From assembly GCA_937929835.1 (NCBI GenBank), contig CALFUU010000040.1, positions 53,979 to 117,978 on the forward strand: a stretch of 64,000 nt of DNA, in the 5' to 3' direction. Source of the stretch: an uncultured Saprospiraceae bacterium (GTDB taxonomy: Bacteria > Bacteroidota > Bacteroidia > Chitinophagales > Saprospiraceae). Under the pieces are notes generated by a model. That model was given only the letters and a program-made list of their open reading frames with translations, searched no databases and was not told the DNA's origin. Numbering within the stretch: position 1 is the stretch's first letter; every line of letters starts with the position of its first letter. Made by a program: the position numbers and the translations under genes. Of this stretch, positions 10,081 through 51,309 are shown one piece after another.

Positions 10081-10812
10081 TTACTTTAGTAGTTTAAGAT
10101 TAAACACCAGTTTTAGTTTTTCCAATAAGATAGGTCTCACCTCTGCTATACTTATGTCTCTTCCTATTTCCTTAGACAAGGAAGTGACAGATTTATCACG
10201 ATCAGCTATGCCACAAGGGATAATATTATCAAAGTGTGAGAGATCCGAACTTACATTGAAGCCGAAACCGTGTAAACTCACCCACCGACTAAGATGCACA
10301 CCTATTGCACAAATTTTTCTCATTCCTTGATTATCCATTAACCAGACACCTGTAAGACCTGTTACACGAACCGGATCTAAACCGTACTCTCTCAATACAA
10401 GAATAATTGCCAGCTCAATATTGCTCACATATCGATGGATATCTCTATACAATAACTCCAAATCAAAAATCAGATAGCCAGTAATCTGACCAGGTCCATG
10501 ATAAGTTATGTCTCCGCCTCTATTGATATCAAATAACTCAAATCCATCTTCTTGCAACTGTGATTCAGACTTAATTATATTTTGTCTTTTTGCACTGGTA
10601 CCAAGCGTATAGACTGGCAAATGTTCGCATATGACAATATGGTTTAAGATGGAAGAGTTACTTTTATCATAGTTTTGTTGGGCGCTTTTCTGATTCTTCA
10701 ACTGATTATGGAGTGTCATCTGAAAGTCCCATACGGATTGATAGGAAACATCAGATATCAGATGGATCTGCGTATTAATTAAACTTTTAGTGCTTTCTTG
10801 TTTTAATTGCAT
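10081..10812 (-). CDS. lipB: Octanoyltransferase LipB
   Basis: EHLPVYTLGTSAKRQNI, RGGDITYHGPGQITGYLIFDL, KICAIGVHLSRWVSLHGFGFNV. Confidence 0.95.
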   Translation of the reverse strand: MQLKQESTKSLINTQIHLISDVSYQSVWDFQMTLHNQLKNQKSAQQNYDKSNSSILNHIVICEHLPVYTLGTSAKRQNIIKSESQLQEDGFELFDINRGGDITYHGPGQITGYLIFDLELLYRDIHRYVSNIELAIILVLREYGLDPVRVTGLTGVWLMDNQGMRKICAIGVHLSRWVSLHGFGFNVSSDLSHFDNIIPCGIADRDKSVTSLSKEIGRDISIAEVRPILLEKLKLVFNLKLLK

Positions 10813-11838
10813 ATGATGAAGACGGTAATCCTTTTGCTTTCAATTTTCGGTTTTTCTGGTGTCCTTGTTTCACAAAATACAGTTCCAGATTTCACTGTGA
10901 CAGACTCAGATGGGATAGAACACACTCTTTATAGGGATTACTTGGACAAAGGTATCACTGTTGGCATTAAGTTGTTTTTTGTCAATTGTCCACCCTGCAA
11001 CTTTGATGCTCCAAAGATTCAGACCCTCTATGAAGAGTGGGGCGCAGGCCAGGCAGACGTACAAATTTTTGAATTAACAATTAGCAGTGATAATGATGCT
11101 GCTGTCAATGGGTATAAGGCTATGCACGGCCTTACTTTTCCAAGTGTCAGCACTGAAGGTGGCGCCTCACAGACTGTACAACCTTATATAAATGGAGATT
11201 TTGGAGCTTTCTTTGGAACCCCGGGCTATTTTGTCATTGCCCCAGATGGTACGGCAACTGCAACGGGTGGTGGAACGAGCTCGCGTATACCCAACTTTGA
11301 CGCAGGCATCAATGCAACTGGGGCAACAGGAATTGTGCCACCACAACCAGATCCAGCTATATTCAATCTATCTATAGAAGATTCCTTTGGCGCTGTCGTT
11401 GAAGATGTAGAGATTCAACTTATATCAGCATCAAATCCAAGTCTCAGCTATGATATTGATTTAGATAATCAACAAATTGTTATACAAGATCTAAATCAGC
11501 AGTTTCCCGGTATTGACGACCCTATTCTCAGATTGTCGAAATCTGATGATATAAGAGGAAAACTTACCCCTTTGGACATTCTTCTCATTAGAAAACACAT
11601 CCTGGGTCTCATTCCTCTTGAAGATGAGGCACTTTTATTGGCAGCGGATACAAATGGAGATGGAAGTATAAATCCACTCGATATGTTGGTCCTCCAAAAG
11701 GTGATTTTGGGTCTATTTAGTGAGTTCCCAATACCTAGTCATCGCTTTACACCTAATGAATTCCCACTGCAAGTGACGCCTGGCTTGCAAAATATTGAGA
11801 TAAAAGCCTCAAAAACAGGCGATCTGAATGGTTTTTAG
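10807..11838 (+). CDS. Secreted redoxin/TlpA-like domain fused to dockerin-like repeats
   Basis: Signal peptide; VNCPPCNFDAPKIQTLYEEWG; TPGYFVIAPDG; RGKLTPLDILLIRKHILGL and ADTNGDGSINPLDMLVLQKVILGL dockerin-type motifs. Confidence 0.85.
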   Translation: MHMMKTVILLLSIFGFSGVLVSQNTVPDFTVTDSDGIEHTLYRDYLDKGITVGIKLFFVNCPPCNFDAPKIQTLYEEWGAGQADVQIFELTISSDNDAAVNGYKAMHGLTFPSVSTEGGASQTVQPYINGDFGAFFGTPGYFVIAPDGTATATGGGTSSRIPNFDAGINATGATGIVPPQPDPAIFNLSIEDSFGAVVEDVEIQLISASNPSLSYDIDLDNQQIVIQDLNQQFPGIDDPILRLSKSDDIRGKLTPLDILLIRKHILGLIPLEDEALLLAADTNGDGSINPLDMLVLQKVILGLFSEFPIPSHRFTPNEFPLQVTPGLQNIEIKASKTGDLNGF

Positions 11839-12133: not shown

Positions 12134-15100
12134 ATGATGAAAATTTTCACATCTAGTGTATTGGTAGTTCTTATGAGCTTATTCATAACGGCTGGCAATC
12201 TTTACAGTTTTGGACACGATGATAATTTCTGCTTTGATGCAGATGTAGCGGAAGCTCAGATGGACTTTGAAGCTATGTGCCTTACTGCTCCCTTTATTAT
12301 GTGCCCTTCAACTTATTTGGGTTGTCCGAATGATAACACCAGCCCTACGACAACAGGCCAGGCAACAGCAACACCTGGAGACCCTAACTGTCCTCAACCT
12401 TCTCTTACTTTCACTGATGTTATTGTCACCAATACACCCTGTCTGAGAGTAATTCATAGAACCTGGGAAGCAGGCTATACTGGTGCGGCAAACCTAAAGC
12501 TTCACTCATCTTGTCAGCAAACACTTTTCTTAGAGGATACAACAGCTCCTGTTATATCCAATTGTCCAAGTAATGTCAACGTTAATCTTCAGAACAACTG
12601 TTCTGGCATAGCTACTTGGTCTATACCGACTGCTGCAGATAACTGTGGAATACAATCCTTTACTACGACACATTTTAGTGGTACAGCATTTCCAACTGGA
12701 ACAACAACGGTTACCTACACGGCAACTGATAATTGCGGATTCCAATCTGTATGTTCATTTGATGTAACGGTGTCTGGCTCTTGCTGTACAGGTCCTAGCA
12801 TTACTTGCCCAGCCAACTATACAGCGTGTGGTGGTTCTACTGTACCAAGTGTAACAGGCGTAGCAACAGGAACAAATGCCGACCCAGCTTCTTGTGGAGC
12901 GGTTAATATCATTTTTACCGATGTAGTTAATTCTACAAGTTCTTGTGGATCATCTATTACGAGAACTTGGGTGGCAAGTGACGGTACAGCTTCTGCAAGC
13001 TGTGTCCAAACAATTAATACAGCTGATAATAACATTCCTGTCATATCTAATTTTCCATCGGATATGACTTTTACAGGAAATGGATCTAACTGTTCTGTAC
13101 CAGTAACTTGGTCTGAACCAATAGCCACAGATAATTGTGGAATAGCCTCATTTTCTTCAAACTTACAAAGCGGAAATGTATTTAGTCAAGGATCTACTTT
13201 AGTAACTTATACTGCGGTCGACAATTGTGGAAATCAAACTACAGCAGCTTTTCAAGTAACTGTAAATTGTACACAACCTTGTAATACAAATCCAACAATT
13301 AACTGCCCAAGTACATTTACGGCTTGTCCAGGATCTGGGGTACCTACTCTACTCACCTCTGGTACAGCAACAGCAACTACTTCTGGCGGTTGCACTGGCA
13401 CACCGATCATTACCCATACTGACGTCATCAATGGTACAGGAGGTGGCACGTGCGCAGGCTCACAACAAATACTCAGAACATTTACAGCTACAGATCCTAA
13501 TAACGCTTCATTGAGTTCTAGTTGTTCTCAAGCAATAAACCTAATCGATACACAAGGACCTACCATAGTAGGTATGCCAAGTAATATGACCGTTAGTGGT
13601 AACGGTGCAGGTTGTGCAGTTCCAGTTACATGGACAGTACCTACTGCGACGGATAACTGTGGATTGTCATCATTGACATCTAACTTCTCTCCAGGTAATG
13701 TATTCTCATCAGGGTCTACTCTAGTGACGTATACAGCGGTAGATAACTGCGGTAATGTTAATACACTTTCATTTACGATAACCGTTAACTGTATTAATCT
13801 TACTTGTAACACACCACCATCTATTTCTTGTCCAAGTACTTACAGTGCTTGTCCGACAAATAGTGTTCCTGGACCTAGTATAACAGGTACAGCGACAGCA
13901 ACGGCGACAGGTGCAAATTGTGGTACACCTACAATTACATTCAATGACATCATATCAGGATCGGGATCTTGTGCAGCATCTATGGTTGTACAAAGAACAT
14001 GGACGGCAACTGAGCCTAGCTCAGGACAGACGGCTTCTTGTGTTCAAATGTTGAACTTGGTTGATAATACAAATCCTTTTTTCCAAAATTTCTGTCCTAA
14101 TCCAATTACATTATCAGGTACTGGATCTAACTGCTCTGCAGTAGCAGTATGGGCTGCACCAACAGCTGCAGACAACTGTTCTTCAGTATCTATTAGCAGT
14201 ACACACAATAGTGGTACTAACTTTGGACAAGGTTCTACCTTAGTAACTTATACCGCTACAGACAACTGTGGCAACAGCAGCACATGCGCATTTAATGTTA
14301 CAGTTAATTGTGCTACTTGTAATACGAATCCAGTGATCTCTTGTCCATCTAGTGTTACTGCTTGTATAGGTTCTAGCTCTAGTCCTAGCTTGACAGGAAC
14401 CGCAACAGCTAATGGTGGGGCTAATTGCCCAGCACCTTCTGTGACTTTCTCTGATTCCACTATTGGGTCTGGTAGTTGTGGAGGCTCAGTTATTACAAGA
14501 ACATGGACAGCTACTTATGCAGGCGTAAGCGGTTACTCTGCTTCTTGTGTACAAAGTATCAACCTAATAGATCAGACTAATCCTGTAATTACTGGATGCC
14601 CATCAAATCTAACGGTAACAAGTACGACAACACCTGTAACTTGGGTAGTACCGACAGCAACAGACAATTGCAGTGTACCTACATTAAGCACTACACATAA
14701 CTCAGGATCTACTTTCCCACAAGGCACGACAACGGTTACATATACAGCAAATGATGGTTGTGGAAACGCAGCGACTTGTTCTTTCACTGTGACTGTAGAA
14801 TTACCACAAGGTGGATTTGCATCTTGTCCGAGTGATATCGTTATCGATTGTAACACAACAGGTGGATCAGTCGCAACTTGGTCAACACCAACTTACAATG
14901 GTGCATGTAGTTCTTGTGATGGAGGTCAGCACATTTCTGGGTTTATATATATGGGCTCATTTAATGGTAGTCAATATTACTGCTCACTTAGCCCAGCTAC
15001 ATTCCCGAGTGCAAAGTCAATCGCATCAAGCCACGGAGGGTACTTAGCAGATGTAAACTCAGCTGAAGAAAACGCTTACCTAGCAAATCAGTTACAAATA

Positions 15101-16858
15101 AACTCTGCTTGGATAGGTCTGAATGATTATGAAAATGAAGGCACCTTCACTTGGTGCAGTGGGGCTCCTTTTGGAAGCTACACGAACTGGTATCCTGGAC
15201 AACCAAATAATTTCAATGGAAACCAAGATTTTGTAGAAATGTTGGCTGATGGAACTTGGAATGACCAGTACAATAATTTTGCTTTAGAGTTTATAATGGA
15301 GATTCCATGTTCATTTATAACACAGACACAAGGGCCTGCACCTGGAACACAATTACAGAGTGGCACTTATCCTGTGACATATACACTTCAAGATGCTTGT
15401 GGCACATTTGCCACATGTAACTTTAATGTAACTGTCAATTCAGGTTTATCAATTACTTGTCCAGATAATATTCACATTGATGCTTCAGATCCTGCAGGAG
15501 CAGTTTGTACTTGGAATGAGCCTACAGCACATTCTTGTTGTTCTAACTGTTCTAATACTGGCGGATCTATTCCAGGATTTATTTATATGGGTAGTCAAAA
15601 TGGTTCACACTATTATTGTTCTCTTGCTCCGGCAAGTTGGGCCACTGCCAATCAAAATTGTATAGCACTAGGTGGTAATCTTGCTGTTATAAATAATGCA
15701 AGTGAAAACGCATTCTTAGCCAATGGCCTACAAGCTACTGCGGCTTGGATAGGTGCAACAGATATGAACAGCGAAGGAAACTTCCAGTGGGTAGATGGTA
15801 CACCATTTAGTTATACCAACTGGTATGTCGGTCAACCAAACAATTATAATGGCAACCAAGACCACCTAGAATTGCTAAAGAGTGGAGAGTGGAATGATCA
15901 ATATGGTTCTGTTTCTCTAGAGTACATCTTAGAGGTTTCTAATTGTATCACAACGACACAGACCGCAGGTCCAGTCTCAGGTACAGTCTGCCCTCCAGGA
16001 TCACATACTGTTAGTTACACAGTACAAGATGGTTGTGGCAATGTAGAGACTTGTTCATTTAATATTACAGTAACGGCACCGGCACCACCATCTGGAAGTC
16101 ACTGTACATCTAGTGGAGCCTTTTCTAATAATAGTTACATACATTCTGCGGCATTTAATACCATCCACAACATTTCTGGAAATAATAACGGTTATGCAGA
16201 CTTTACGAATCAATGTACGACTGTAGCGGCAGGTTCTGTGTATCCTTTACAATTGACACCAGGCTATGGTAGTGCCTCTCCTGTCAAGGTCTATTGGACT
16301 TGCTGGATTGATTACAATATGGACGGTGACTTCGATGACAACTACGAATTTGTAGCCTATGGATGTGGTGCTAAGACACTGTCTGGTTCTATAACAATAC
16401 CTTATGCAGTATGGAATGGTACTACGAGAATGAGGTGCATCATGAAGGTAGGTGGCTATGCTACGGACCCTTGTGCACAGTACCAATACGGAGAAACGGA
16501 AGATTACTGCGTTACGATTACGGGTGCTGATATTATAGGTCAACAAGGGCAAGATCTAGAACTGAGAAATTCACCTTGGGCAGATGCTCTAGAATTGAAG
16601 CCTACTGTATCGGATGACAACTATGCTACTATCTATCCTAATCCAGTCAATGAGGTAATGACCTTAGAACTAGGTAATGTCGATATGATTAAAGCAGTCG
16701 GTATCTACAGTATAGATGGCAGAAGAGTTATGACACTCAATAATGTTAAAGAATTTAATGAAGTGAATGTATCTGACTTGCAAGGCGGCATATATATGCT
16801 CAATGCAACATATGAAGACGGTACGGAAATCACTGAAAGGATTATTGTTCAACATTAA
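12134..16858 (+). CDS. Large secreted HYR-repeat protein with two C-type-lectin-like domains, a GEVED-like domain and a T9SS type A sorting tail
   Basis: Repeated TATDNCGxxxxxxxxxSGxxFxxGxTxVTYTAxDNCGN HYR motifs; two CTLDs with WIG...QPNN...WND; WIDYNMDGDFDDNYEFV...GETEDYCV; C-terminal TIYPNPVNEVMTLE...IIVQH. Confidence 0.93.
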   Translation: MMKIFTSSVLVVLMSLFITAGNLYSFGHDDNFCFDADVAEAQMDFEAMCLTAPFIMCPSTYLGCPNDNTSPTTTGQATATPGDPNCPQPSLTFTDVIVTNTPCLRVIHRTWEAGYTGAANLKLHSSCQQTLFLEDTTAPVISNCPSNVNVNLQNNCSGIATWSIPTAADNCGIQSFTTTHFSGTAFPTGTTTVTYTATDNCGFQSVCSFDVTVSGSCCTGPSITCPANYTACGGSTVPSVTGVATGTNADPASCGAVNIIFTDVVNSTSSCGSSITRTWVASDGTASASCVQTINTADNNIPVISNFPSDMTFTGNGSNCSVPVTWSEPIATDNCGIASFSSNLQSGNVFSQGSTLVTYTAVDNCGNQTTAAFQVTVNCTQPCNTNPTINCPSTFTACPGSGVPTLLTSGTATATTSGGCTGTPIITHTDVINGTGGGTCAGSQQILRTFTATDPNNASLSSSCSQAINLIDTQGPTIVGMPSNMTVSGNGAGCAVPVTWTVPTATDNCGLSSLTSNFSPGNVFSSGSTLVTYTAVDNCGNVNTLSFTITVNCINLTCNTPPSISCPSTYSACPTNSVPGPSITGTATATATGANCGTPTITFNDIISGSGSCAASMVVQRTWTATEPSSGQTASCVQMLNLVDNTNPFFQNFCPNPITLSGTGSNCSAVAVWAAPTAADNCSSVSISSTHNSGTNFGQGSTLVTYTATDNCGNSSTCAFNVTVNCATCNTNPVISCPSSVTACIGSSSSPSLTGTATANGGANCPAPSVTFSDSTIGSGSCGGSVITRTWTATYAGVSGYSASCVQSINLIDQTNPVITGCPSNLTVTSTTTPVTWVVPTATDNCSVPTLSTTHNSGSTFPQGTTTVTYTANDGCGNAATCSFTVTVELPQGGFASCPSDIVIDCNTTGGSVATWSTPTYNGACSSCDGGQHISGFIYMGSFNGSQYYCSLSPATFPSAKSIASSHGGYLADVNSAEENAYLANQLQINSAWIGLNDYENEGTFTWCSGAPFGSYTNWYPGQPNNFNGNQDFVEMLADGTWNDQYNNFALEFIMEIPCSFITQTQGPAPGTQLQSGTYPVTYTLQDACGTFATCNFNVTVNSGLSITCPDNIHIDASDPAGAVCTWNEPTAHSCCSNCSNTGGSIPGFIYMGSQNGSHYYCSLAPASWATANQNCIALGGNLAVINNASENAFLANGLQATAAWIGATDMNSEGNFQWVDGTPFSYTNWYVGQPNNYNGNQDHLELLKSGEWNDQYGSVSLEYILEVSNCITTTQTAGPVSGTVCPPGSHTVSYTVQDGCGNVETCSFNITVTAPAPPSGSHCTSSGAFSNNSYIHSAAFNTIHNISGNNNGYADFTNQCTTVAAGSVYPLQLTPGYGSASPVKVYWTCWIDYNMDGDFDDNYEFVAYGCGAKTLSGSITIPYAVWNGTTRMRCIMKVGGYATDPCAQYQYGETEDYCVTITGADIIGQQGQDLELRNSPWADALELKPTVSDDNYATIYPNPVNEVMTLELGNVDMIKAVGIYSIDGRRVMTLNNVKEFNEVNVSDLQGGIYMLNATYEDGTEITERIIVQH
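12291..14811 (+). repeat. Five tandem protein-coding repeat units (about 480-525 nt each), each a Cys-rich module plus an HYR domain
   Basis: Units begin near 12291, 12791, 13292, 13816 and 14330, each at a [I/T]xCPsxxxxC motif. Confidence 0.8.
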
Positions 16859-24539: not shown

Positions 24540-27500
24540 ATGAAAATTGTATTTAAAGTATTACTCTGGCTATTAATAGGTTTGGTCATAGCACTCCTCC
24601 TAGTACCTTACTTGTTTAAAGGTCAACTATTGACCGCAATAAAAGACACCCTCAATGAAGAGCTCTACGCAGAAGTAGATTTTGAAGATGTAAACCTCTC
24701 TCTATTCAAGAATTTTCCAGCCGTATCTGTTGGCATAGACAATGTAGCGGTGACTGGTGTAGACCAATTTGCAGGTAAGACACTCTTTACAGCAAATAAC
24801 ATCAGTGTAACTACAGACTTCAAATCATTAATCAAAAGCCAAGAAGGCATAAATGTCAAAAGCATCTATGTAGACAAACCTCTGATCAATGTAATTGTGA
24901 ATAAAGACGGAAGTGCCAACTATGATATCGTCAAAGATAAAACTGATAGCCAATCTGGTGGTGACACTTTTGGCCAAATTGAAAAATACGAAATCAAGAA
25001 TGGCAACATCAACTATCTAGATAATACATCTGGCTTAAAGGCTGTTATCACAGATTTGAATCATCAAGGTCGCGGTAATTTCAAAAACGTAGTGTTTGAC
25101 CTAGAAACAGAAACACAAATAAGTGCGCTGTCATTCACTGCCCAAGGCATACCCTATTTGAATAAAGCAAAAGTGGATTCAAAATTAGATCTAGGCATAG
25201 ATTTAGATAAAAGCGAATATGTCTTCAAGGAAAACAACATCAATCTCAATGACCTGGAAATGGCGCTAACAGGTAAGATCCGAGAGCAGTCTGGAGGATA
25301 CAATATGGACGTAGCAGTCTCTGCTCCAAACAACTCTGTAAGTTCTATACTGTCTTTAGTGCCAAGTGCTTACAAAGGGGAATTTCAAAACATAAGCTCT
25401 ACTGGAAATTCATTTCTGGAAGGTACGATCAACGGACTCTACACGAGTGACCCTATAAGTTATCCGAAAATTAATCTGAAAGCTAACATCGATAATGGTA
25501 CAATAAAGTATCCTGATCTTGCACTACCCGTTAAGGATATCAATCTGGATGTAGCAGTAGGCGCCACCCAATCCGATTGGAGCGATCTTACTATTGACTT
25601 AAGTAAACTGACCTTCCTTATTAATGAGGATAGAATGTCTAGCCAAATGAAAATAACTAATGGGCTTAACAATCCTAATATAGTCGGATTGATAAATGGT
25701 TCTCTTAATCTGCCCAACCTATCAGAAGCCTTTCCTGTAAAGGATATGAAACTTAAAGACGGTGATGTAAAAATTAATATGGCCGTCAATGCCAACTCAA
25801 ATGACATCATCAATCAAAATTATGGAGCGATGGAATTGTCTGGGGAACTAACAGCCAGCAAGATTGATCTCAAATATGCACAGTGGCCTCTGAAGATAAA
25901 AGAAATCAATACCAAACTCAATCCAAAAGAAATAACTAATACAGTTGCCGAAGTGGAAGTTGGAAACTCTGACTTCAATGGTACAGTTTTCATTCAAGAT
26001 CCTTTAGCGTTTATACAAGATTCCACTCTATCTGTGAACACAAAAATAGACTTAACAAGCAAGCAACTCGATCTAGACGAACTAATGGCTCTAAATGAAA
26101 GTACAAGTGCCACTGAGTCAGCAATAGAACCAGGTGTACCTGACCTCTATAATGGGTACAAGGTGACAGGTTCGTACAAAGCCAATGAAATAAAATACGA
26201 AAATTACGACTTGAATCAACTCCGTACGGACTTTGTGTATGCAAAAGATGCTGTTGATTTATCATCTACAAGCTTTATGCTCAATGGTTCAAAGATGCAA
26301 ATCAGAGGAGAGGCCTCAAACATAATGGACTACGTAACTCTGAATGAGAAAATAAAAGGAAAATTCTTTTTTGAAGCTGACAAACTCAATTTAGATGACT
26401 ACCTCAGTGAGACGGGAGAAACCTCTACCGAGTCAGAGCTCTTTATAGTAGACAAAAATATGGAACTGACTATCTATCCAGAAGTAGGTGAGATAACCTA
26501 TGGCCAGTATGTACTAAATGATCTCGAGGGGAAGATAGAATTACTCGATGGGATAGCTCAGCTCAAAGAAGGCACTACAAAGACACTCGGAGGTAAGATC
26601 AATATGGATGGTATTTATGATACTTCCAATCCAAACCAACCCGCATTTGATTTACGTTATAAATTGGATCAGTTGTCTTATCAAAAACTATTTGAAATAT
26701 CAGAATCTTTCAAGAAGCTAGCACCCATTGCACAATATATAGATGGGGCTTTCAATTCTACACTTGTGATGGCTGGGCCTCTTACTAAAGAAATGTTGCC
26801 TGATCTTACCAAAGTAACGGCGTCAGGATTTTTAGAGACCTTACAGGGCAACATACAAGGCTTTGAACCCATAGAGAAAATTGGTAATGCAATCGGTGTA
26901 GACAAATTGAAATCTTGGACATTAAAGGGAACTAAAAATTGGTTTGATGTAAGAGATGGATTTGTCATCCTAAAGCCGCACGATCATCAGATAGACGATA
27001 TGATATTCACTGTCGCAGGTAATCATGGGATAGATCAGACATTAGATTACACGATCAATGCAAAAATACCAAGAGACAAACTGAGAAAAGATAAGCTCGG
27101 AAAAAACTTAGAATTCGGCATGGACTTCTTAGAAAAAGAAGCCAGCTCTAGAGGTGTCAACATCGATTTAGGTGAGATGATATACTTAGATATCTTCTTG
27201 ACAGGTACACTTAAGTCACCAAAACTGAAAGTCATTCCTGTTGGCTCAGGTGGAAAAACACTCAACGAAGTTGTTAAGGATGAAATCACAAAACAAATTG
27301 ATGTATTAAAAGATACTGTTAGGACAGAACTAGAGAATAAAACAGAAGTCCTAAAAGACTCAGTTACGAAGGTTATTGTCAGCAAAACTGATACTATAAA
27401 AAAACAAGCGGAAGAAAGAGTCAAAGTAGAAGTGGATAGACAAAAGGACAAACTTAAAGACGCATTCAAGGATAAATTAGATACTACCGTGACCAAGGTG

Positions 27501-27638
27501 CTTACAGACTCTCTTGAAGGTAAAGTCCTTGACAGAGCAAAGGATGTACTAGGTGACGACTCTAAAGAAACCGTCGATGATCTAAAAGATAAAATTAAAG
27601 ACTGGAATCCATTCAAAAAGAAGAAGGGCGGAAATTGA
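24540..27638 (+). CDS. AsmA family protein
   Basis: N-terminal TM, NEELYAEVDFEDVNLSLFKNFPAVSVGIDNVAVTG, AsmA-like C-terminal core, then charged coiled-coil tail. Confidence 0.9.
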   Translation: MKIVFKVLLWLLIGLVIALLLVPYLFKGQLLTAIKDTLNEELYAEVDFEDVNLSLFKNFPAVSVGIDNVAVTGVDQFAGKTLFTANNISVTTDFKSLIKSQEGINVKSIYVDKPLINVIVNKDGSANYDIVKDKTDSQSGGDTFGQIEKYEIKNGNINYLDNTSGLKAVITDLNHQGRGNFKNVVFDLETETQISALSFTAQGIPYLNKAKVDSKLDLGIDLDKSEYVFKENNINLNDLEMALTGKIREQSGGYNMDVAVSAPNNSVSSILSLVPSAYKGEFQNISSTGNSFLEGTINGLYTSDPISYPKINLKANIDNGTIKYPDLALPVKDINLDVAVGATQSDWSDLTIDLSKLTFLINEDRMSSQMKITNGLNNPNIVGLINGSLNLPNLSEAFPVKDMKLKDGDVKINMAVNANSNDIINQNYGAMELSGELTASKIDLKYAQWPLKIKEINTKLNPKEITNTVAEVEVGNSDFNGTVFIQDPLAFIQDSTLSVNTKIDLTSKQLDLDELMALNESTSATESAIEPGVPDLYNGYKVTGSYKANEIKYENYDLNQLRTDFVYAKDAVDLSSTSFMLNGSKMQIRGEASNIMDYVTLNEKIKGKFFFEADKLNLDDYLSETGETSTESELFIVDKNMELTIYPEVGEITYGQYVLNDLEGKIELLDGIAQLKEGTTKTLGGKINMDGIYDTSNPNQPAFDLRYKLDQLSYQKLFEISESFKKLAPIAQYIDGAFNSTLVMAGPLTKEMLPDLTKVTASGFLETLQGNIQGFEPIEKIGNAIGVDKLKSWTLKGTKNWFDVRDGFVILKPHDHQIDDMIFTVAGNHGIDQTLDYTINAKIPRDKLRKDKLGKNLEFGMDFLEKEASSRGVNIDLGEMIYLDIFLTGTLKSPKLKVIPVGSGGKTLNEVVKDEITKQIDVLKDTVRTELENKTEVLKDSVTKVIVSKTDTIKKQAEERVKVEVDRQKDKLKDAFKDKLDTTVTKVLTDSLEGKVLDRAKDVLGDDSKETVDDLKDKIKDWNPFKKKKGGN

Positions 27639-49515: not shown

Positions 49516-51309
49516 ATGGCAAAAATCAGTTATACCCTTCTCTTTTGTGCATTATACTTAGGGCAAGTATGCGCACAGACAGAACTCGTATTAGAAAGAG
49601 TCGAAGGACTTAGTTCCAATGACAGAATAGAAGACATCGAAGTACACAAGAACAGTGTGTGGATTGCTAGTAAGGATGGCATATTTACCTTCGATAATGA
49701 CAACAGTACACTTTCCCAGATTATAGATCACGGCAACGCGATGGCTGTCAAAGTCTCCAACAATGGTAGCATATTTTCTGCTTACAATGATAAGACACTC
49801 TTCTACAATGAGGACAACTTAATAGATATAGAGACCAACTTTAAGCGGTTCAAAGGGGATAACTTTGAGTTTGCTGATCTCGAAGTGTATAAAAATGAAT
49901 TATGGGTCGGCTCCTCAAAAGGCCTGTTCATCTTTGATTTAAGAACCAAAAAGCTCAAAAAACACTATACAACTGAAAATAGTAATCTGAGGTCCAATAA
50001 GATCAATTTTGTCATTTACTCAAGGAATAATGAAAGCTTGTGGGTAGGCACTGATGATGGAGCTTTAGAAATTACGGAAAGAACCAAAAAGTGGAAGACA
50101 GAATACAAAGGACATAAGATGATCGCCGCAACCGAGAACAAAGACGGTTTGTGGCTACTATCCGATCTAGAGCTTTATCTCATGATCAAAGGTCGAGAGC
50201 ATCCGCAAGGCCTTAAGAGAGGATTATATCAAGGGCAAGTCAACGATCTCGCTCTAGATAGACAGAACAATCTCTACGTCGCTTCTGATATATTGACGAG
50301 ATTTAATCCCTACGAAGATAAGCTCGACCAGTACGGTGAGAATCTCGGTCTAGCAGCAAGTAAGTGCCTAGCTCTGGCCTGCGATAAAGCTGGCGCTCTA
50401 TGGCTGGGAACTGCCGATGCCGGACTATATAGGATCTACTCTGACTCCATCGATCTTACAGACCTAAGAGTGAGTATGTTTCTAGAGAGCCCGATTACGT
50501 GTCCTGGTGAAGCAGATGCTATGATTAACGTGAGTGTATCTGGTGGTACAGCTCCTTACAAGTACTTGTGGGAACGAGCTAGATTAAAAGGTCAAAGCAA
50601 TCCGCAAAATCTTAAATCTGGAACTTACAAAGTAACCGTTGTAGATGACATGGGGACCAAAGGATATTCCACTATAACTGTATCTGACCCTAAGCCCATT
50701 TCCAATAGGATAGTATTGACAAAACCAGTCACTGGCGCTTCGAGAAATAATGGCTATGCGGTTATAAGTCCCAAAGGCGGCACACCACCCTACGAGATAA
50801 AGTGGGAAAATGGCGAAGAAGGCCTAGAAGCAAAAAAATTGGCACTAGGTTCCAATGCACTCGTGATTACCGATGACAATGGTTGCTCCGCCGCCTCAGC
50901 AGTAGAAATCACCAAACCTAAAATCCTTCCTGATCTCAATATAGCTACCCTTAAGGTAGGTCAGACTCTAAGAATCAACAAATTATACTTCGAAGCCGAT
51001 AGTAGTACAATGTCCAATGAATCATTTGATGTACTAGAAGAGGTCTACGACTTTATGGATCAAAATAAAAACGTAGCTATCGAAATCGGTGGGCATACCA
51101 ATGATATTCCACCAGACGAATATTGCGACAAACTCTCTACGACCAGAGCCAAGACTGTTGCAGACTTTTTATATTCTAAAGGTATCCTCTCTGAGAGAAT
51201 AACCTATAAGGGTTACGGAAAACGTAAACCGATAGCTTCTAATGAAAGTGCTTCTGGAAGAAGAAAAAACCAGCGAGTTGAAATCAAGATTCTCCGTTTA
51301 CAAGGCTAG
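49516..51309 (+). CDS. Secreted beta-propeller (Reg_prop-like), SprB-like repeat and OmpA C-terminal fusion protein
   Basis: Signal peptide; SLWVGTDDGALEITERTKKWK propeller blades; GTAPYKYLWE and GTPPYEIKWENGEEG SprB-type repeats; OmpA LYFEADSSTMSNESFDVLEEV...GHTND...RRKNQRVEIKI. Confidence 0.88.
   Translation: MAKISYTLLFCALYLGQVCAQTELVLERVEGLSSNDRIEDIEVHKNSVWIASKDGIFTFDNDNSTLSQIIDHGNAMAVKVSNNGSIFSAYNDKTLFYNEDNLIDIETNFKRFKGDNFEFADLEVYKNELWVGSSKGLFIFDLRTKKLKKHYTTENSNLRSNKINFVIYSRNNESLWVGTDDGALEITERTKKWKTEYKGHKMIAATENKDGLWLLSDLELYLMIKGREHPQGLKRGLYQGQVNDLALDRQNNLYVASDILTRFNPYEDKLDQYGENLGLAASKCLALACDKAGALWLGTADAGLYRIYSDSIDLTDLRVSMFLESPITCPGEADAMINVSVSGGTAPYKYLWERARLKGQSNPQNLKSGTYKVTVVDDMGTKGYSTITVSDPKPISNRIVLTKPVTGASRNNGYAVISPKGGTPPYEIKWENGEEGLEAKKLALGSNALVITDDNGCSAASAVEITKPKILPDLNIATLKVGQTLRINKLYFEADSSTMSNESFDVLEEVYDFMDQNKNVAIEIGGHTNDIPPDEYCDKLSTTRAKTVADFLYSKGILSERITYKGYGKRKPIASNESASGRRKNQRVEIKILRLQG

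Follow-up and report, generated by a model that had tools for sequence, protein, structure and literature searches.

C-type-lectin-like domains inserted in HYR domains of a predicted type IX-secreted protein from a Saprospiraceae bacterium

Split Ig-like domains for which sugar binding has been demonstrated are known from the RTX adhesins (PMC12077191, PMC10865825). In these type I-secreted, Ca2+-stiffened proteins of the Gammaproteobacteria, a ligand-binding and often sugar-binding domain emerges inside an Ig-like β-sandwich, which the chain then completes; the inserts are CBM/PA14, peptide-binding, RTX or vWFA domains. The Saprospiraceae protein analysed here likewise has a domain inserted in an Ig-like domain, with ligand binding by the insert presumed, and shares with the RTX split-domain adhesins a long repeat stalk and, as proposed here, a role in surface adhesion. 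However, its host is an HYR domain (or a second Ig-like family), its insert is a true C-type-lectin-like domain (CTLD), its secretion is type IX and its slot has a likely neck disulfide and can take up to four inserts. By analogy, the design would parallel the projection of sugar-binding heads in adhesins of unrelated bacteria. Intimin, invasin and other bacterial CTLD-like adhesins carry a CTLD-like domain on Ig-like repeats, but in those proteins the CTLD is simply joined to the end of the Ig domain, whereas in the Saprospiraceae protein it lies inside it. Intimin_C has been noted in PMC8286594. No published account of a CTLD within an HYR was found in a search of papers available without subscription.

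The Saprospiraceae are abundant in wastewater plants, and some are attached to other bacteria (PMC9304909). The window, a 64,000-nucleotide stretch, encodes on its forward strand (as for all features below) a large, secreted-type protein of 1574 amino acids at positions 12134–16858. Searches of the whole ORF against Pfam detected HYR (PF02494, E = 1.5e-67, in seven stretches comprising five complete HYRs and two second halves), Lectin_C (PF00059, E = 2.1e-33, two stretches), GEVED (PF20009, E = 3.8e-18, positions 16292–16516, residues 1387–1461) and a type IX secretion system (T9SS) type-A C-terminal sorting domain (positions 16631–16849, residues 1500–1572; Por_Secre_tail, PF18962, E = 3.2e-11, and TIGR04183 in NCBIfam, E = 1.3e-11). 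RTX repeats and a type I secretion signal were also looked for in the ORF with Pfam and NCBIfam, which gave no RTX match and the T9SS sorting domain instead. The T9SS sortase PorU is encoded in the same genome (1152.9 bits in a profile search, over the cut-off), which together with the sorting domain marks the protein as a predicted type-A substrate. A signal-like N-terminus is followed by five pairs of an Ig-like unit and an HYR, two HYRs each containing a CTLD, the GEVED domain and the sorting domain, an order that a sequence-only reading had already given for the part from the five ordinary HYRs onward. HMM alignment and Pfam place the first ordinary HYR at positions 12542–12778 (residues 137–215), and alignment places the others at 13034–13270 (residues 301–379), 13556–13792 (475–553), 14072–14311 (647–726) and 14579–14803 (816–890).

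The two composite modules occupy positions 14810–15442 (residues 893–1103) and 15443–16081 (1104–1316), so that the span proposed earlier, 14812–16080, was right to within two bases. In module 1, the first half of HYR 6 (14810–14917, residues 893–928, with Cys898, Cys925 and the neck residue Cys928) precedes a CTLD identified by both Pfam and Foldseek (14939–15307, residues 936–1058), and the second half follows (15308–15442, residues 1059–1103, with neck Cys1059, Cys1089 and Cys1095). Module 2 repeats this arrangement, with HYR 7 halves at 15443–15550 (residues 1104–1139) and 15944–16081 (1271–1316), both placed by alignment and Pfam, on either side of a second CTLD (15575–15940, residues 1148–1269). 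PF00059 matches the two CTLDs with E-values of 2e-15 and 3.2e-19. Each HYR is thus interrupted after its third strand by a CTLD of 122–123 residues, or about 130 with linkers.

To locate the insert, an HMM was built from the five ordinary HYRs alone and 3,486 possible deletions were scored per module. The intact modules gave best-domain scores of 33.7 and 38.3 bits, which the best deletions raised to 52.1 and 54.0 bits; these deletions, at about residues 925–1059 and 1135–1269, correspond to the CTLD almost to the residue. Pfam behaves in the same way, with only the second half of HYR (profile positions 44–81) matched in the intact modules, whereas removal of the CTLD yields near full-length matches at positions 10–81 and 8–81, scoring 33.0 and 36.2 bits against a gathering cut-off of 21.7 bits. 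On their own, the N-terminal halves score 12.6–16.1 bits with the home-made HMM and are too short for Pfam.

The cysteine pattern also connects the two halves. Across ordinary HYRs, a first-half cysteine (C7) and a second-half cysteine (C67) are both present in 158 domains, both absent in 94, as in the second and third HYRs of this protein, and single in 4 (p = 2e-65, a value inflated by the relatedness of the sequences). In the module alignment, C6 and C203 co-occur in 67 of 67 nested modules and C33 and C197 in 65 of 67, and the neck pair is found in 63 of 67 and lost together in three more. Two disulfides of the 898–1095 and 925–1089 type would therefore join the HYR halves, and a further one of the Cys928–Cys1059 type probably staples the ends of the CTLD. 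AlphaFold2 models of HYR 5, used as internal reference, with both modules (pLDDT 82.8; pTM 0.43, leaving the relative domain orientation unsure) and of one module (pLDDT 89.1, pTM 0.71) both predict three HYR strands, the CTLD and three further HYR strands, in the order of the six strands of HYR 5. Foldseek matched the predicted CTLD to solved CTLDs from CD23, collectin-11, SRCL and Endo180 (TM up to 0.88, target-normalised); its top matches were all CTLDs, so that the search is silent on the packing of the HYR shell, and no close HYR template was found among solved structures. The deletion scan, cysteine co-retention and AlphaFold2 agree, and confirm at the level of sequence and prediction that each CTLD is inserted inside one HYR. 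The suggestion that the lectin replaces a loop of the sandwich, in two successive HYRs of a protein of the T9SS-secreted type, was correct in location, but the CTLD is inserted rather than substituted, as all HYR strands and cysteines are kept.

A search for further nestings of this type, which had been recommended with the initial proposal, found them at 37 loci with 65 full modules, 26 loci having a tandem pair. Of 199 genomes sampled from the family, at least 57 encode full-length nested modules. An IMG/VR scan found no viral relatives. Taken together with the T9SS signal, these observations lead us to propose, with a probability of roughly 0.6, that the ORF encodes a T9SS-secreted, fibrillar cell-surface adhesin in which lectin heads are held out by split Ig-like domains, in the manner of the RTX adhesins. 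The HYR/Ig-like repeats would form a stalk, and in the last two HYRs the chain would lay down three strands, exit through the loop after the third, fold a complete CTLD there and then come back to add the remaining three strands of the HYR. As the two ends of a CTLD lie side by side, insertion would turn the opposite face, with the long loop that bears QPN..QD..WND, away from the stalk, the tandem arrangement giving a two-headed, putatively sugar-binding unit.

It is unlikely, though worth weighing, that the CTLDs instead tether the protein, binding the cell's own lipopolysaccharide or exopolysaccharide to hold its base while the HYR array reaches outward. In the 26 orthologues the pair always adjoins the sorting domain, 250–294 amino acids from the C-terminus, while the number of preceding HYRs varies from 3 to 12; type-A substrates can be attached to A-LPS at their C-terminus (PMC10202324), and anchoring at that end would place the CTLDs close to the cell surface rather than at the far end of the stalk. 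On the other hand, one group of loci (L032–L034) has three nested modules at the N-terminus (residues 55–730), so that their position is not fixed. Lectins near the cell with 3–12 HYRs beyond them would, given C-terminal anchoring, be a poor fit to a tip adhesin.

The CTLD site itself is of the type QPN..QD..WND by consensus. In module 1, QPNN lies at 15200–15211 (residues 1023–1026), followed by Gln1031–Asp1032 and by WND at 15257–15265 (1042–1044), and in module 2 motif searches placed QPNN at 15833–15844 (1234–1237) and WND at 15890–15898 (1253–1255). These motifs had been described as resembling QPD or EPN while matching neither, and QPN is indeed a hybrid of the two. Column counts over 67 modules show near-invariance (Gln131 in 66, Pro132 in 67, Asn133 in 59, Asp152 in 64), and the next ligand position is Gln in the consensus and Glu in 9 of 67. 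Fold and motif frame are shared with the PF00059 lectins (CD23, collectins, langerin, Endo180), but where Ca2+-dependent C-type lectins have EPN or QPD followed by Glu and WND as ligands, the nested CTLDs have QPN with Gln at the next ligand position; they also lack the cysteine that canonical lectins have after WND, have their own end cysteine pair and sit in another domain. Judged from sequence, the candidate calcium site is poorer in acidic ligands than that of mannose-binding protein, with Gln for Glu at two positions. Such partial replacement of Ca2+-site acids counts against the adhesin reading. It also favours a reading that we consider distinctly improbable, in which the fold is a Ca2+-independent scaffold for non-sugar ligands, a use known from many animal CTLDs; two CTLDs of a second Ig-like host family (C20 in genome G000) moreover lack QPN and WND altogether. 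Against this, the near-invariance of Gln-Pro-Asn and WND is what a conserved sugar site would show, and other occupants of the HYR slot elsewhere carry the canonical EPN..ED..WND. On the proposed reading, the ligand of the nested CTLDs would be a carbohydrate.

Because Pfam alone detects only the second halves of HYR 6 and 7, each CTLD could be taken for an ordinary separate domain after a truncated, unrelated segment, but this is very improbable in view of the deletion scan, the cysteines and the strand order in both predictions, in which no such separate CTLD was seen. The second host family, in the same genome, behaves alike: its CTLDs occupy a comparable loop, it has uninterrupted paralogues and CTLD removal lifts its host score from 38–43 to 82–95 bits. 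The deletion scan also contradicts plain end-to-end tandem domains. Diversity-generating retroelements commonly target CTLD-like folds in bacteria, but a role as variable proteins of such an element is extremely improbable, as the long loops are conserved rather than hypervariable and no reverse transcriptase (PF00078) was found in the genome that encodes the protein (G000), which is 90.1% complete.

To our knowledge, the ligands of Bacteroidota surface adhesins are largely unknown, a few gliding proteins aside. If an insert in an Ig-like domain marks a binding head, as in RTX adhesins, Saprospiraceae genomes could be read directly for such heads, each a compact domain ready for expression and array; two secretion systems would then share one engineering solution, and the family would provide naturally occurring lectins with one to four heads on a shared scaffold. 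In some proteins one HYR slot carries 2–4 CTLDs, for a range of one to four. There is perhaps an even chance that the Ig-like loop is a general display slot in surface proteins of the order to which the Saprospiraceae belong, with two or more host families, cassettes of 1–4 CTLDs with their own neck cysteine pairs, degenerate or truncated CTLDs and one extra non-CTLD domain; it would then be a type IX counterpart of the RTX split domains, reached independently, with its own QPN/Gln/WND lectin class. Homology between HYR and the second host family is not claimed, as profile comparison aligns the last 26 columns only, with a probability of 19%. A tree of 85 CTLDs built from few columns unites those of the second host in 98% of bootstrap trees and does not unite the HYR-nested CTLDs, a pattern that is suggestive, though no proof, of separate occupation of the two slots.

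The ORF at positions 12134–16858 of the forward strand (1574 aa) encodes HYR (Ig-like, PF02494), two Lectin_C (C-type-lectin-like domain, CTLD, PF00059), GEVED, and T9SS sorting domains by Pfam and carries a type-A T9SS signal by NCBIfam; the GEVED region and T9SS tail expected from the sequence-only reading were thus both found. Residues 893–1316 comprise two modules, each an HYR domain broken by a CTLD, and the coordinates first assigned to this pair, 14812–16080, proved correct to within 2 bases. The earlier proposal that a CTLD is nested inside an HYR domain, twice in tandem, was upheld by deletion scanning, cysteine pairs, and predicted strand order, with a probability that we put at about 95%, and the findings below also extend it.

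For the deletion scan, a hidden Markov model was built from the five uninterrupted HYR domains of the protein alone, and every stretch was deleted in turn in two-residue steps, 3,486 deletions per module. The optimal deletion corresponded to the CTLD in both modules: removal of residues ∼925–1059 from module 1 (893–1103) raised the best-domain HYR score from 33.7 to 52.1 bits (median across the deletion set, 34.2), and removal of ∼1135–1269 from module 2 (1104–1316) raised it from 38.3 to 54.0 bits (median, 38.8). The Pfam HYR match spanned only model positions 44–81 in intact modules and 8/10–81 once the CTLD was removed. The suggested structure prediction was carried out using AlphaFold2 for HYR5 with both modules (27 sequences; mean pLDDT 82.8, pTM 0.43) and for module 1 alone (67 sequences; pLDDT 89.1, pTM 0.71). 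In the former, the six HYR5 strands (3–5, 11–13, 26–28, 35–38, 49–58, and 64–73) are matched by six in module 1 (79–82, 87–90, and 105–107, then 245–251, 262–271, and 277–287), with the CTLD placed between strands 3 and 4; the models suggest that the two HYR halves pack together. Foldseek aligned the CTLD part with CD23, collectin-11, scavenger-receptor lectin, and Endo180 (target-normalized TM-scores of 0.85–0.88).

Cysteines offer independent evidence. Among 257 distinct ordinary HYR domains from related proteins, 158 have Cys7 in the first half together with Cys67 in the second, 94 have neither (as in HYR 2 and HYR 3 here), and 4 have only one. Being kept or lost together marks them as a putative disulfide joining the halves; kinship of the sequences inflates any p value, and the argument rests on the pattern rather than the number. 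Cys31 and Cys61 were jointly present in nearly all. The corresponding pairs were kept in 67 of 67 and 65 of 67 nested modules, their partners lying a whole CTLD apart. A third pair, at the neck of the insert, occurred in 63 of 67 modules and was jointly missing in three; slots holding several CTLDs have one such pair per CTLD, which assigns it to the CTLD. We infer all three pairings from these sequences.

The proposed search for other such nestings, run across GTDB genomes, recovered 37 loci with 65 full modules, all titled Saprospiraceae or Saprospirales bar one Bacteroidia. An HYR followed by a tandem nested pair was seen at 26 loci, and three modules at 3. Full-length nested matches occurred in at least 57 of 199 genomes of the family and, among 299 genomes of the order, in three further families (f2, f56, and f67). 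PF00059 was matched in 27 of 396 genomes sampled across the phylum, and none of the inspected matches outside the order was flanked by HYR halves; all four matches in the window's own genome are nested. Many relatives share a thioredoxin/dockerin protein upstream and a metallo-hydrolase, ParA, and ParB downstream, constant neighbors which argue that the CTLD gene is inherited with the chromosome. In the window, the upstream protein (10807–11838) combines thioredoxin-like (AhpC-TSA/Redoxin) and dockerin type I domains and, as in many relatives, adjoins the CTLD gene.

The window's own genome contains a second Ig-like host family (PxAICDQ..DDGSYDDC..FCC..FRVxDxxGNxxxCMVxVxVQDK). Its copies on contigs C57 and C116 are uninterrupted; a CTLD interrupts a copy on C170 and two copies on C20. 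The CTLD was again the optimal deletion, and its removal increased host scores of 38.0, 43.3, and 39.8 bits to 89.4, 95.0, and 81.8 bits, respectively. These CTLDs cluster together in the tree; both on C20 lack QPN and WND and score slightly below the Pfam cut-off (21.6–21.7 versus 22.6). The slot at C140:36702–37262 (L171) appears to hold a truncated CTLD without the long-loop region. Short non-CTLD inserts of ∼55 residues occupy the same loop of the second host at C57:9727–10134 and C57:43922–44323 (L168 and L169).

One HYR domain may hold two (loci L139 and L141), three (L038), or four CTLDs (L138, G106:C446), each with its own cysteine pair. At L142 (G049:C188), two CTLDs are followed by a ∼100-residue domain of another kind, for which Pfam gave nothing over cut-off (FlgD_ig, 17.8 bits). 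Neighboring ORFs at L040 (JAHDGC010000222.1) alternate several CTLDs with a domain of ∼100 residues (CNDGDCPVNLYHWVPSGDIF...) that may be a spacer or a further host.

The predicted sugar site is strongly conserved across the 67 modules, which suggests that it matters: Gln131 in 66, Pro132 in 67, Asn133 in 59, Gln139 in 58 (Glu in 9), Asp140 in 56 (His in 9), Asn151 in 58, and Asp152 in 64. The mannose-binding protein site is EPN..E..ND; the nested CTLDs instead have Gln at two Glu positions, which may weaken or abolish their binding of Ca2+. Other occupants of the HYR slot carry EPN..ED..WND. In insect lectins, QPN has been counted among the atypical motifs (PMC12979142).

In RTX adhesins, "split" Ig-like domains project ligand-binding domains whose two ends sit on the same side and whose binding face points outward, and several are shown to bind sugars and cells (PMC12077191, PMC10865825). 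The anatomy is the same here, a domain emerging from inside an Ig-like domain, although the host is HYR, the insert a CTLD, and secretion type IX. By this analogy, the protein, which is not an RTX adhesin, probably works like a split-domain adhesin; confidence is moderate in this function and strong in the structure. Type-A T9SS substrates are cut and possibly attached by the C terminus to A-LPS (PMC10202324). Such attachment would hold the lectins close to the cell with the HYR array outside, a position that fits the adhesin reading poorly and keeps in play an unlikely alternative, that the CTLDs bind the producer's own LPS or exopolysaccharide and tether the base of the protein to the surface or matrix. 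The 26 orthologues with the nested pair have 3–12 ordinary HYR domains before it and 250–294 residues after it; the stalk is variable in length and the head constant.

Elsewhere in the window, the 1032-aa ORF at 24540–27638 had no Pfam match at E 0.001, and a 597-aa protein (49516–51309) combines a β-propeller-like region, SprB repeats, and an OmpA domain.
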